DNA of 32,235 nt from Candidatus Gastranaerophilales bacterium (lineage in GTDB: Bacteria > Cyanobacteriota > Vampirovibrionia > Gastranaerophilales > Gastranaerophilaceae), in NCBI GenBank assembly GCA_947588755.1, contig CANPZB010000019.1, forward strand, positions 1 to 32,235. The letters are read 5' to 3'. This document shows, one piece after another, positions 2,736 through 31,503 of the stretch; position 1 is the first letter of the stretch; each line of letters begins with the position of its first letter. Below the pieces are notes generated by a model, which worked only from the letters and a program-made list of their open reading frames with translations, had not been told where the DNA came from and ran no database searches. A program made the translations under genes and the position numbers.

Positions 2736-3080
2736 ATGCGATTAGGTGAACTGGAAATCGATATTTTAAATTCATTCTGGAAATTAAGTGACTCAATGGG
2801 AGATACCGATATATCAATCCAAGATGTTGTTGATGATTTAAAAGCTAATGGTATTGACAGAGCATACACAACGATAAAAACTATTATGGACAGACTTGCC
2901 TCTAAAAAAAGTATTCTTGTAAGGTACAAATCAGGCAAAAGATATTACTATAAAGCAGTAATGAGCAAAAAAGAAATTTCGCTCAATGTAATTGACAAGA
3001 TTGTAAAACAGTATTTTAACGGCAGTTATAGTGAACTGGTAAAATTCATTGAAACTGAATGTGTCAGTTTGACCATATAA
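2736..3080 (+). CDS. BlaI/MecI/CopY-family winged-helix transcriptional regulator
   Basis: The 114-residue protein has the BlaI/MecI layout. LGELEIDILNSFWKL starts the first helix, a region with SIQDVVDDLKANGIDRAYTTIKTIMDRLASK forms the helix-turn-helix, and VRYKSGKRYYYKAVMSKKE is the wing. A short C-terminal dimerisation segment follows. Family members repress target operons as dimers and are usually inactivated by proteolysis through a BlaR1/MecR1 sensor; no such sensor gene is visible here. A good Shine-Dalgarno (GAGGATATT) fixes the ATG. The next two genes follow at 6- and 7-nt gaps, so the regulator probably heads an operon with an unknown gene and the serpin-like protein. Its target is unknown; autoregulation is the default guess. 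Confidence 0.82.
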   Translation: MRLGELEIDILNSFWKLSDSMGDTDISIQDVVDDLKANGIDRAYTTIKTIMDRLASKKSILVRYKSGKRYYYKAVMSKKEISLNVIDKIVKQYFNGSYSELVKFIETECVSLTI

Positions 3081-3086
3081 TTAATT

Positions 3087-3464
3087 ATGTCCGAATATGC
3101 AAACAAAAATAACAGAATTAAGGTAGGAGAACTAATACGGAAAGTTCTTACGGATAGTATGTCTACAAGAGAGGCTTTGCTGAATTTTCCGAAAGACACC
3201 TCTGATGAAAGTCTGACTGCTGCATGGCATGCTCTTGTTCATTATGAAGCAGATGAAGATTTAAGACTCCGTGACGAATTGTATAAGGAAGAACAAAACG
3301 ATTATCTGGAATTTATTTCCGATACCCTTGCCAAGGGGCAGGACTTGCCCGATAATATAATAAATAATTATAAAAAGTATTATAAATCGGCCGTAATTCC
3401 GCATGAAAAAAATACACACGGTTTTTTAAAAGGATTTATGAAATTTTTGAATATAAAGGAGTAA
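3087..3464 (+). CDS. hypothetical protein, 125 aa
   Basis: Not recognised. It is a soluble, mostly helical, acidic protein with no signal or membrane segment (for example GELIRKVLTDSMSTREALLNF, then a WHALVHYEADEDLRLRDE stretch). It begins 6 nt after the BlaI-type regulator and ends 7 nt before the serpin-like gene, so it belongs to the same transcription unit. No Shine-Dalgarno is visible before its ATG. A TATAAT (3076-3081) lies 5 nt upstream, but it overlaps the previous stop codon and has no good -35, so it may be chance. Translational coupling to the regulator is the simpler explanation. Confidence 0.75.
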   Translation: MSEYANKNNRIKVGELIRKVLTDSMSTREALLNFPKDTSDESLTAAWHALVHYEADEDLRLRDELYKEEQNDYLEFISDTLAKGQDLPDNIINNYKKYYKSAVIPHEKNTHGFLKGFMKFLNIKE

Positions 3465-3471
3465 AAAAAAA

Positions 3472-4509
3472 ATGAAAAAACTTTTAACTTTATTCGCATT
3501 GCTAACTTTGGCACTTAATTTTACACCGGTTAGGGCATCTTCTCTGGATGTTCTGCCCGTAATGAGTTCAATATCCGTGTCGGAAAACAGAGTTTGGGTT
3601 GGAACATTTCAACTTGTATGGAATGATTTATCCGACAATTTGGTTAAAGGTGCCGTTAAATTCTACGGGAAAACGCCCGCAAATGTTAAACTGCTTAACA
3701 AAAAATCATTTAATGCAGATATGATTTCGGAGAATTCATATTACAAAACATTCGGTACCGTTTCACCCGAACTTAAAAATACTATTGAACAGGCAATAAA
3801 AGAAAAGTTTAATGAAACAAGCAGTATTCTGAATTCATTTGATTGGACTACCGCTGATAACAAGTATCTTTTTTATGCCATGCTGAAAAAGAATTTCAAA
3901 TTTACCAAAGCATTTGACAAACTGAACCCTGAGCCTTTCGGGAAAAATTTCAACAAAAAAACGGCATATTTCGGTATAACCAAAAAGAGTTCAAAAGAGT
4001 TGGACAGCTGTGTAAATGTCCTTTTCTATAATTCGCCTTCCGATTTTGCGGTATCACTTCCGACCGAAGAAGATGATATTGTTTATTTATACAGAACATC
4101 GGATAACAAAACTTTTGATAAATTATATTCGGATATGAATTTAAAAAGCAAAAAATACGACGGTTCGACGGAATTTCTAAAAGACGATGAGTTAAAAGTT
4201 CCTGATATTGATTTGAATGTAATCAAATCCTTTGATGAATTAACCGATAAAAGAATAAAACGTACCTCAATAACCATAGATAAAGCATTGGAAACCATTG
4301 AGTTTAAAATGAATAACGAAGGCGTAGAATTAAAATCGGAAGCAGCACTGGCAGCATTTACATCAATGCCGCTTCCGTATCCCGTAGCCCGCCCGAGATA
4401 TTTTTATTTTAATGATACGTTTGTAATTTTCTTGCAGGAAAAAGGTAAAGCCTTGCCGTATTTCGCATTGAGAGTGAATGACATTGATGCCGTAAACAAT
4501 GCAAAATAA
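3472..4509 (+). CDS. exported serpin-like protein, 345 aa
   Basis: A lipid-less signal peptide is clear: lysines, a hydrophobic core, then PVRA-SS as cleavage site (about residue 23). The rest follows the order of serpin landmarks although identity is low. YLFYAMLKKNFKFTKAFDK resembles strand 3A. VNVLFYNSPSDFAVSLPTEED matches the 'ELPY...LP' region, and ELKVPDIDLN resembles the strand-6B motif. ITIDKALETIEFKMNNEG then VELKSEAALAAF resembles the hinge. YFYFNDTFVIFLQEKGKALPYFALRVND matches the serpin C-terminus (normally F-x-x-x-F-x-F, ending in a G-K-V-like segment). The hinge carries bulky Val, Leu and Lys, so inhibitory activity is uncertain. Serpins are typically 350-400 residues. Strong Shine-Dalgarno (AAAGGAG). 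Secretion beyond the inner membrane is inferred. Confidence 0.6.
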   Translation: MKKLLTLFALLTLALNFTPVRASSLDVLPVMSSISVSENRVWVGTFQLVWNDLSDNLVKGAVKFYGKTPANVKLLNKKSFNADMISENSYYKTFGTVSPELKNTIEQAIKEKFNETSSILNSFDWTTADNKYLFYAMLKKNFKFTKAFDKLNPEPFGKNFNKKTAYFGITKKSSKELDSCVNVLFYNSPSDFAVSLPTEEDDIVYLYRTSDNKTFDKLYSDMNLKSKKYDGSTEFLKDDELKVPDIDLNVIKSFDELTDKRIKRTSITIDKALETIEFKMNNEGVELKSEAALAAFTSMPLPYPVARPRYFYFNDTFVIFLQEKGKALPYFALRVNDIDAVNNAK

Positions 4510-4609: not shown

Positions 4610-5098
4610 ATGACAGTTAAAATCAGACCTAAAGTTGTAAAAACTTTTTACAGCAATGCTCAAGAAGCAGCATACAAATTGGTAAGAAATGATAAAAATA
4701 CACTGACACTTTATAAAAATATCAGTGATACAAAAGGAATTGATAATTTTGTAAGTATAGCCAAAAAAGAAACTTCAAATGCGTATGGTTATATAGAAAA
4801 GACTCATTATAATCCACAAGACGGAAGTGAAATTGCAAATTACAAATTCAGTACATCGCGTGTGATAAATCCCGAATTTAATATATCAGATAAATCAATA
4901 GATGCTAATATGCATTTAAAAAAAGATTTGCATAGTGACAATTTTTTCCTGAATGATGAATTATACATTGATAAAACTTCAATTAAAATTAAAGATGCAA
5001 TAAGCCTGTCACCCATGGGAAAACGAATTTTAAAATTATATCTTAATGCATTAAAAAATACTTCCAAAGAAGTAGTAGAACGCAATAAAAATGTGTAA
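4610..5098 (+). CDS. hypothetical protein, 162 aa
   Basis: Not recognised. It has a good Shine-Dalgarno (AAAAGGAG) at the right distance from the ATG. The protein is lysine-, asparagine- and aspartate-rich, with no signal peptide and no membrane segment. The C-terminal third is basic and helical (GKRILKLYLNALKNTSKEVVERNKN). Its last codons overlap the start of the next gene by 8 nt, which suggests translational coupling. Both genes lie between the serpin-like gene and radA and may form a pair working together. Confidence 0.75.
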   Translation: MTVKIRPKVVKTFYSNAQEAAYKLVRNDKNTLTLYKNISDTKGIDNFVSIAKKETSNAYGYIEKTHYNPQDGSEIANYKFSTSRVINPEFNISDKSIDANMHLKKDLHSDNFFLNDELYIDKTSIKIKDAISLSPMGKRILKLYLNALKNTSKEVVERNKNV

Positions 5099-5522
5099 TA
5101 CAATATACAAATACAATTCAAAAGACTTAAGTTTTAAGGCAATAAAAGGTATAAAATATACGGGATTATACCGCCAATATCCTGAGTTTGCGGATGATTT
5201 GATAAAGACTTTCAAATCAAATAAGATTATTGCTGATTTTTACACAAAAAACGATGTCAGAATTACTCTTGATGCCGAATTTAAAAACGGATTATATGCC
5301 GTTGAAAATTCTCTTAGCGTGGTTTATAAAAGTATTCATGAGAAAAAAACATTAAAGAAGTTTCTTGAAAATATTTTTAACGGTCAGCCGCGTTATCAAT
5401 TTAGTATAAAAAATACTTGCGACAGTGAAGCAGATAATATAAAAAGTATTAAGAAATGCACACAAATATTGAAAGATAAAATTGAACAGGCAAAAGACTT
5501 AACAGGACTGTGTTTACCTTAG
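5091..5522 (+). CDS. hypothetical protein, 143 aa, with an N-terminal SFKA motif
   Basis: Not recognised. The ATG overlaps the end of the preceding gene by 8 nt and has no Shine-Dalgarno, so it is likely read by coupled re-initiation. The N-terminus (YNSKDLSFKAIKG, SFKA at residues 14-17) resembles the short Ser-Phe-x-Gly-type motif seen in other unknown proteins of this window (17922 and 25555). The middle and end are basic and helical with no membrane segment. Function unknown. Confidence 0.72.
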   Translation: MCNTIYKYNSKDLSFKAIKGIKYTGLYRQYPEFADDLIKTFKSNKIIADFYTKNDVRITLDAEFKNGLYAVENSLSVVYKSIHEKKTLKKFLENIFNGQPRYQFSIKNTCDSEADNIKSIKKCTQILKDKIEQAKDLTGLCLP

Positions 5523-5564: not shown

Positions 5565-6953
5565 ATGGCAAAAGTAAAATCAAAATGGATATGTCAGCAA
5601 TGCGGATATGAATCTGCAGGGTATTTGGGGAAATGCCCCGAATGCTCGGCATGGGGAAGCTTTACGGAGGAAGTGCAGTATAATACAAAACCAATTCAAA
5701 CTTCTGCCGTAAATGAATTTATTAATACCGAAAAACCTCTGCTTCTTAAAGACATAAAATTTGATGAAGAAATAAGAGTAAGCACCAATATTCCCGAATT
5801 TGACAGAATACTCGGCGGAGGTTTTGTACAGGGTTCACTCGTTTTAATAGCCGGTGACCCCGGTATAGGAAAATCTACAATCCTTTTACAGACCTGCGGT
5901 GAATTGTGCAAAAAAAATAAAAAAGTATTATATGTTTCGGCGGAAGAAAGTGCAAATCAAATAAAACTCAGAGCCGAAAGACTTAACATAAAAGCCGACA
6001 CACTGTATATTTATCCGCAGACATTGGCGGAAAATATAAAATCGCGAATTGAAGAATTAAACCCCGATTTTGTTGTTATAGACAGTATTCAGGCGATATA
6101 TTCGCAAAATTTTCAGAGTTCTGCGGGAAGTATATCGCAAATAAGAGAATGTACAAATTTATTAATGCAGATAGCTAAAACAAAAAATATTACAATTGCT
6201 GTCATCGGGCATGTAACAAAAGAAGGCAACATAGCAGGTCCAAAGGTTTTGGAACACATGGTTGATACCGTCATTTATTTTGAGGGTGATAAATACAAGT
6301 CATACAGGATTTTGCGGTCAATGAAAAACCGTTTCGGCAATACTTCCGAAGTCGGAATATTTGAAATGCAGACAACAGGGTTAAAATGTATATCCAACCC
6401 CAACGAACTTTTTCTCAACGAACGTTCGCAAGGAACTATTCCCGGTACGGCAATAATAGTAACCAATGAAGGCACACGTCCTTTGCTTGTGGAAATTCAA
6501 GCACTGGTGGGAACAACTCCTTACCCCGCACCAAGACGTGTTACAAACGGGGTTGATACAAGCAGACTGCTGCAAATTCTTGCCGTTCTTGAAAAAAGAG
6601 TCGGATTAAACTTATCAAAGCAGGATGTTTATGTAAATGTTATGGGCGGAATTGAAGTTTCTGAGCCTTCCGCTGATTTGGGAATTGCACTTGCAGTCGC
6701 TACCTGTGCCAGAGATGTTGTAGTGGATTCACAAACGGTTATCATCGGCGAAATAGGTTTGTCCGGGGAAATTCATCCCGTCAATAACATTGAAAAAAGG
6801 CTCAACGAAGCGGCGGCATCGGGCTTTAAAAAAGCCATTATTCCTTATGCCAACAATGTTACCGCAAATTTTGACAGCATTGAAATAGTCAGGGTTAAAC
6901 GCTTAATTGATGCCATAAGTGCCTGTGTTGCACCGTGTGGGAGAAAAGCCTGA
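5565..6953 (+). CDS. radA: DNA repair protein RadA
   Basis: RadA/Sms is a RecA-like helicase/branch-migration factor acting in homologous recombination. The 462-residue protein shows the full family layout: a C4 zinc finger (Cys10, 13, 24, 27); Walker A GDPGIGKST at 97-105; the KNRFG signature at about residue 250; and a Lon-protease-like C-terminal domain (PSADLGIALAVAT, GEIGLSGEIHPV). I chose the ATG at 5565. A TTG at 5550 in the same frame is possible on paper, but it adds five residues ahead of the conserved start and lies inside the -10 box. The stop is only 2 nt from the stop of the convergent TPR gene, with no hairpin between them. Confidence 0.96.
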   Translation: MAKVKSKWICQQCGYESAGYLGKCPECSAWGSFTEEVQYNTKPIQTSAVNEFINTEKPLLLKDIKFDEEIRVSTNIPEFDRILGGGFVQGSLVLIAGDPGIGKSTILLQTCGELCKKNKKVLYVSAEESANQIKLRAERLNIKADTLYIYPQTLAENIKSRIEELNPDFVVIDSIQAIYSQNFQSSAGSISQIRECTNLLMQIAKTKNITIAVIGHVTKEGNIAGPKVLEHMVDTVIYFEGDKYKSYRILRSMKNRFGNTSEVGIFEMQTTGLKCISNPNELFLNERSQGTIPGTAIIVTNEGTRPLLVEIQALVGTTPYPAPRRVTNGVDTSRLLQILAVLEKRVGLNLSKQDVYVNVMGGIEVSEPSADLGIALAVATCARDVVVDSQTVIIGEIGLSGEIHPVNNIEKRLNEAAASGFKKAIIPYANNVTANFDSIEIVRVKRLIDAISACVAPCGRKA

Positions 6954-31430: not shown

Positions 31431-31503
31431 GCTCCCATCGTCTAGAGGCCTAGGACAACACCCTTTCACGGTGTAGACGGGGATTCGAATTCCCCTGGGA
31501 GTA
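31431..31503 (+). tRNA. trnE-UUC: tRNA-Glu (TTC)
   Basis: A complete 73-nt cloverleaf: acceptor GCTCCCA/TGGGAGT with a G1:U72 pair, D-arm GTCT/GGAC, anticodon stem ACACC/GGTGT with loop CTTTCAC (anticodon TTC), T-arm GGGGA/TCCCC with loop TTCGAAT, discriminator A. CCA not encoded. The G1:U72 pair and overall pattern match cyanobacterial and plastid tRNA-Glu. Confidence 0.95.

Follow-up and report, generated by a model that had tools for sequence, protein, structure and literature searches.

What does the gene at the end of a short BlaI-led run in a Gastranaerophilales genome encode, and does it belong functionally with the regulator that precedes it? The window, i.e., the whole stretch of 32,235 nucleotides analyzed here, is one contig (C19) of a genome of 1.83 Mb that is 99.8% complete. 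Three open reading frames lie in a row on its + strand, with gaps of 6 nt and then 7 nt: a BlaI/MecI-type regulator of 114 amino acids (2736 to 3080), a small protein of 125 amino acids without an assigned family (3087 to 3464), and a serpin-fold protein of 345 amino acids (3472 to 4509). A sequence-only reading had described this strand and spacing correctly; it had also proposed that the third product is an exported serpin that traps proteases, and that the three genes form one unit.

The serpin assignment was not available from the window protein by itself. Searched alone against Pfam, NCBIfam, and PDB sequences, the 345-amino-acid protein gave no serpin match, and it did not reach the Pfam cut-off for PF00079. 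Among its homologues, 22 of 63 individually match PF00079 Serpin (E < 0.1; best 4.4e-5), and family members from G025, G302, and G312 exceed the Pfam cut-off. The relatives' matches span model positions of about 282 to 369, the part from the hinge to the C terminus, which includes the C-terminal strands s4B/s5B (residues 309 to 337, RYFYFNDTFVIFLQE...PYFALRVND, at 4396 to 4482 of the + strand). An AlphaFold2 model built with the 63-row alignment has a pLDDT of 87 and a pTM of 0.84, and it contains sheets A, B, and C in order, followed by s4B/s5B. Against the PDB, the matches listed by Foldseek (best E 2.4e-10) and by VIA (Z 19.2, 270 amino acids, rmsd 3.9, 12% identity) are all serpins. A control modelled identically, the ordinary serpin L144 from the same class, gave Z 47.6 over 358 residues with rmsd 2.3, and the family model has fewer N-terminal helices than this control. 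The difference between Z 19.2 and Z 47.6 indicates a fold that is that of a serpin, yet strongly remodelled. Profile-profile comparison of the family with ordinary class serpins gave a weak match (E 0.0012) that was still weak after deep relatives were added (E 1.2e-4, probability 55%). A proteasome match of the family profile to PDB sequences (E 2.1) was set aside as chance.

Export is the other half of the assignment. Residues 1 to 22 (3472 to 3537, + strand; MKKLLTLFALLTLALNFTPVRA) resemble a signal peptide, as had been claimed, with low pLDDT at residues 13 to 22. A lipobox-like start replaces this type of start in 11 of 80 homologues; since one or the other occurs across the homologues, export to the envelope is a common feature of the family. 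One member (L178:1688-3319, - strand) is a 543-amino-acid open reading frame with a long acidic, proline-containing stretch between its signal segment and its serpin domain. Altogether, the model and the relatives' sequences establish the fold, and the product of 3472 to 4509 is a real, exported, highly divergent serpin. The proposal of serpin landmarks in the expected order at low identity has held up, at 12% identity to the best PDB matches, and the AlphaFold check that had been suggested was run and returned the three serpin sheets together with an unordered loop segment.

Given a serpin fold, are the residues that drive serpin movement also present? We compared the columns of the family alignment (A1, 63 rows) with those of 30 ordinary serpins of the class (A2). 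In the shutter, S53, S56, N186, and H334 are replaced in the family by G, Q, A, and E or Q, the first three fixed or nearly so; these equivalences were set by ungapped motif alignment, without structural superposition. In the hinge, which in the window protein is GVELKSEA (residues 284 to 291, or P15 to P8 with Gly284 as anchor; 4321 to 4344, + strand), T becomes V at P14, A becomes L at P12, A becomes S at P10, and T becomes A at P8, nearly all fixed in the family. P12 in particular is Leu in 63 of 63 family members versus Ala in 30 of 30 ordinary class serpins. The replaced shutter and hinge residues are invariant or nearly so in the ordinary class serpins.

The inhibitory hinge motif from P17 to P9 reads ExGTEAAAA (PMC8233489). 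With the Gly-anchored register, neither this motif nor one like it is found in the family, and the P15 glycine, present in all members, is the only residue of it that is retained; the inhibitory shutter set of S53, S56, N186, and H334 is likewise absent. The Gly anchor was chosen since it brings the loop lengths into agreement with no gap needed and puts inward- and outward-facing positions in the same phase. The profile-profile alignment places a 4-residue gap in the hinge, with SEAA on TEAA, and this may be an alternative register, under which the hinge would look canonical. Both groups have fixed residues at the inward-facing hinge positions, T, A, A, T in ordinary class serpins versus V, L, S, A in the family, as would be expected if the hinge segment inserts into sheet A. 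Judged from the alignments, the shutter and hinge replacements are a coherent second set of residues and do not represent decay. The family also has invariant motifs of its own, e.g., W-GTFQ--WN.

The reactive-loop segment (residues 292 to 308; 4345 to 4395, + strand) is variable, modelled mostly at low confidence, and presumed to be exposed. From the hinge glycine to the s4B phenylalanine, the family has 31 to 34 residues and the ordinary class serpins have 29 to 33, a comparable distance, so the loop has a normal length, as in inhibitory serpins. It is unordered in the AlphaFold2 model, with pLDDT < 50 at residues 292 to 301 and 303 to 305. The two models differ at the hinge: in the family model, the hinge strand spans residues 284 to 291, is inserted in sheet A to P8, and loses order from 292, whereas in the L144 control, the hinge strand goes no further than P13 and disorder begins at P11. 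This suggests that the loop is already half inserted, though a single AlphaFold comparison is no proof. In known serpins, hinge insertion to P8 goes with loss of inhibition. We rejected the cleaved and latent serpins among the top VIA matches as evidence for insertion, since the L144 control ranks such entries high too; the model-based hint lies only in the strand and confidence pattern, which differs from that of the control. At one locus (L179), two divergent family members adjoin, one of them with a loop 8 residues shorter than that of the window protein.

Of the 292 genomes sampled across the phylum, 119 carry the gene. They all belong to the window's own family, in which genomes without the gene are few and the copy number is nearly always one; it is a single-copy core gene of nearly the whole family. 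A separate search found further members, partly more divergent, in other families of the order. Most named relatives are metagenome-assembled genomes of Gastranaerophilales or Melainabacteria, several of them titled gut or rumen. Another family of the class (f8; L109, L119-L147) is rich in ordinary serpins: its genomes have between one and six, some of them arranged in tandem. Within the family alignment, the hinge has an entropy of 0.16, versus a mean of 1.4, and the loop has an entropy of 2.31, rank 2 among 297 alignment windows. Pooled over 18 independent pairs of close relatives, dN/dS is about 0.01 for the hinge, 0.27 for the loop, and 0.06 for the rest, by simple counting and with few changes in the hinge. 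By these measures, the gene is strongly constrained, above all in the hinge, while the loop has more freedom but is constrained too. An arms race in the loop was rejected, as its dN/dS of 0.27 is below 1, and no positive selection was seen there in the 18 pairs. The variability of the loop is itself weak evidence, because variation is to be expected of any disordered loop.

What, then, might the protein do? Serpins at large are known as protease suicide traps, but trapping in the canonical manner, as originally proposed, is not supported, because shutter and hinge residues that are invariant or nearly so in the ordinary class serpins have been replaced. The reading that we tentatively place first is of an exported housekeeping protein whose loop meets one of the cell's own envelope proteases, with hinge insertion as the working step. 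After export to the cell envelope, the hinge, as far as about P8, would occupy the place of the fourth strand in beta-sheet A, and the loop (residues 292 to 308) would be offered as bait to an envelope protease. Once the loop was cut, the hinge would complete its insertion, and the protease would be trapped or at least consumed. The likely task would be a housekeeping one, to keep proteolysis in the cell's own envelope under control, and not to attack enzymes of the host or of competitors. The serpin fold, the normal loop length, the near-frozen hinge, and the nearly constant single copy speak for this, as do the operon order and the promoter box before BlaI (see below). A further point in its favor is that the genome encodes one trypsin-family protease, an exported HtrA-like enzyme of 240 amino acids (L177:1693-2415) for which the Pfam scan gave no PDZ match; no S8 protease was found in the genome, and since these two protease families were the only ones searched, the target is a guess. 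Leu at P12, the replaced shutter residues, and the modelled insertion of the hinge to P8 count against it, and protease trapping is an unproven candidate function of the 345-amino-acid protein.

The same observations can be read in another way, and we regard this as nearly as likely as an encounter with an envelope protease. The protein could be a non-inhibitory member of the fold, its loop permanently half inserted and its sheet A locked by the V/L/S/A and G/Q/A/E core, and it could bind a ligand, an envelope protein, or a wall component in the way of the hormone-carrier or chaperone serpins. Here, the wholesale and fixed replacement of shutter and hinge, and a hinge inserted with high confidence in the family model and not in the control, are what one would look for, and the single copy under strong purifying selection, the family-specific invariant motifs, and the acidic, proline-containing linker of L178, which would fit an anchored binding part, agree with it. 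However, the family has kept a loop of normal length that is unordered in the model, and its hinge is the most constrained part of the protein, beyond the apparent need of a permanently buried strand.

A more doubtful idea, though one that we still consider, is that the loop-insertion machinery was rebuilt as a set, with the loop constitutively half inserted, to give a core envelope protein that works in a mode undescribed for serpins, e.g., as a one-shot proteolysis sensor or a loop-gated binding protein.

It is improbable that the protein is a secreted serpin of the canonical type, switched on by BlaI and aimed at gut host or competitor proteases, as the sequence-only reading had envisaged. 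Export, the serpin fold, an operon with a regulator, and the animal-gut origin of many relatives (from record titles) would suit such a role, and there is a precedent in the siropins, serpins of gut bacteria that are reported to inhibit human proteases (PMC5127057). However, the canonical hinge and shutter are not kept, the loop bears no sign of positive selection, BlaI is linked in only part of the lineage, and a single-copy core gene under strong purifying selection is unlike a weapon.

This leaves the second part of the question, whether the serpin gene belongs with BlaI. The first open reading frame matches PF03965 Penicillinase_R (E 2.7e-16, 60.4 bits versus a cut-off of 22.6) and is the only PF03965 match in the genome; the small protein has no Pfam match over the cut-off. 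The order and strand of BlaI, small gene, and serpin gene are kept with short gaps in 48 of 80 loci, while the other 32 serpin loci have neither BlaI nor its promoter box. The main contexts of these unlinked genes, with neighbor names presumed from sequence, are a position between a YggU-like gene and radA and one next to genes for an aminotransferase and a TPR protein. In 47 of 80 loci, with or without linked BlaI, the serpin gene has radA (5565 to 6953, + strand, in the window) within 1 kb downstream and in the same orientation. In the window, two small open reading frames (4610 to 5098 and 5091 to 5522) stand between the two; neither has a Pfam match over the cut-off, and among the other fetched loci, they match only in copies of the window. 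Upstream, a conserved exported gene (1492 to 2646, + strand; the start codon is our choice) precedes BlaI in 41 of the 43 BlaI-linked loci with room for it, with nothing over the cut-off in the Pfam scan. The linkage types are clustered on a quick tree of the serpins, with a few changes.

BlaI has a companion of its own. It occurs in 35 of 39 genomes, some of which have the serpin gene elsewhere or lack it, and in 19 of 19 fetched BlaI loci, the small gene is directly 3' of it; in 18 of the 19, no serpin gene adjoins, and several of these genomes have no serpin match at all. Because the pairing holds with or without an adjacent serpin gene, BlaI and the small gene (window 2736 to 3464; L158-L176) make up the order-wide unit, the small protein carrying the motifs HALVHYEADEDLR...EEQDDYLE...LPxNII. 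On this comparison of loci, the serpin gene either became attached to the unit in part of the lineage or was retained beside it there. The proposed BlaI-serpin unit thus stands as to direction and order in the 48 linked loci and fails for the rest, and the pairing that had seemed unusual does exist, though in part of the lineage only. The absence of a BlaR1 sensor, also pointed out from the sequence, proves to be the rule in this order: no M56/BlaR1 gene over the PF05569 cut-off was found in any of 39 genomes (the window genome and 38 relatives), and in place of a cognate M56 sensor-protease, the small gene follows BlaI. A literature search on BlaI without BlaR1 returned nothing relevant.

The promoter region leads to a similar view. 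In 39 of 42 loci, TATGTTACAATnTTAGTAA precedes BlaI, an extended -10-like element that overlaps a TTAC...GTAA dyad; the window's copy (2685 to 2707, + strand) is degenerate, scoring 6.3 versus a median of 33. Similar dyads also stand before BlaI in several genomes where no serpin gene is linked, none of the 32 unlinked serpin genes has the box upstream, and genome-wide counts of the BlaI box with up to two mismatches do not exceed the reversed control. We infer that BlaI acts on its own promoter and carries the serpin gene along only where the two are linked; in those loci, the serpin gene is probably co-transcribed with BlaI and the small protein and so under BlaI control. That all three form one system, with BlaI as repressor, the small protein as sensor or its modifier, and the serpin as effector, is unlikely, for although order, strand, and short gaps are kept in 48 loci with the box before BlaI, the BlaI pair occurs apart from the serpin gene, even in serpin-less genomes, and the serpin gene apart from both partners and the box.

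A related box, TGTTACAATArTAGTA, precedes the same exported protein of ~420 amino acids in four genomes (L195, L200, L203, L204); the L200 copy is a PF09992 phosphodiester glycosidase (E 1.1e-40). This gene is possibly a second BlaI target, or it may share only the extended -10 promoter. Between box and start codon in these four lies a conserved untranslated leader, GATGAGTGTTATTCCCC...CCACTC...AAAAAGGTATCC, with no Rfam match. In the window, the sole match of the Rfam search is a tRNA gene (RF00005) at 31431 to 31503.

Prokaryotic serpins are reported to be sparse, with an enigmatic function (PMC8233489), and the literature searched contained no relevant paper on serpins in Melainabacteria or Gastranaerophilales. 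Here, a gut-associated lineage has one as a conserved single-copy gene that escapes Pfam and NCBIfam scans when the window protein is the query, and its alternative fixed residues stand at the very positions that define serpin mechanics. Because ordinary serpins abound in a sister family of the class, there is a close reference for studying the change, and which sheet-A residues loop insertion needs can be tested directly. The same locus raises a second question, that of a BlaI/small-protein pair with no BlaR1.

How does the family compare with known systems? With serpins (PF00079; MEROPS I4; L144 and the groups of PMC8233489), it shares the fold, the order of sheets A, B, and C, the helix F region, the hinge glycine, the loop length, and the C-terminal FxxxF strands. 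It differs from them in its 12% identity to the best PDB matches, its place below the Pfam cut-off, its Z of 19 versus 47 for the control, its mature part of about 323 amino acids with fewer modelled N-terminal helices, and its different fixed set of shutter and hinge residues.

Non-inhibitory serpins, such as hormone carriers, ovalbumin, and HSP47, have the fold without the canonical small-residue hinge, and so does this family. Unlike in those proteins, its hinge is not relaxed but exceeds the rest of the protein in conservation, and the gene is a lineage-wide core gene in bacteria. The regulator, for its part, resembles BlaI/MecI/CopY-type repressors (PF03965) in its near full-length match and in the dyad near its own promoter, and it departs from them in having no BlaR1/MecR1 partner and, throughout the order, being paired with a small protein instead.
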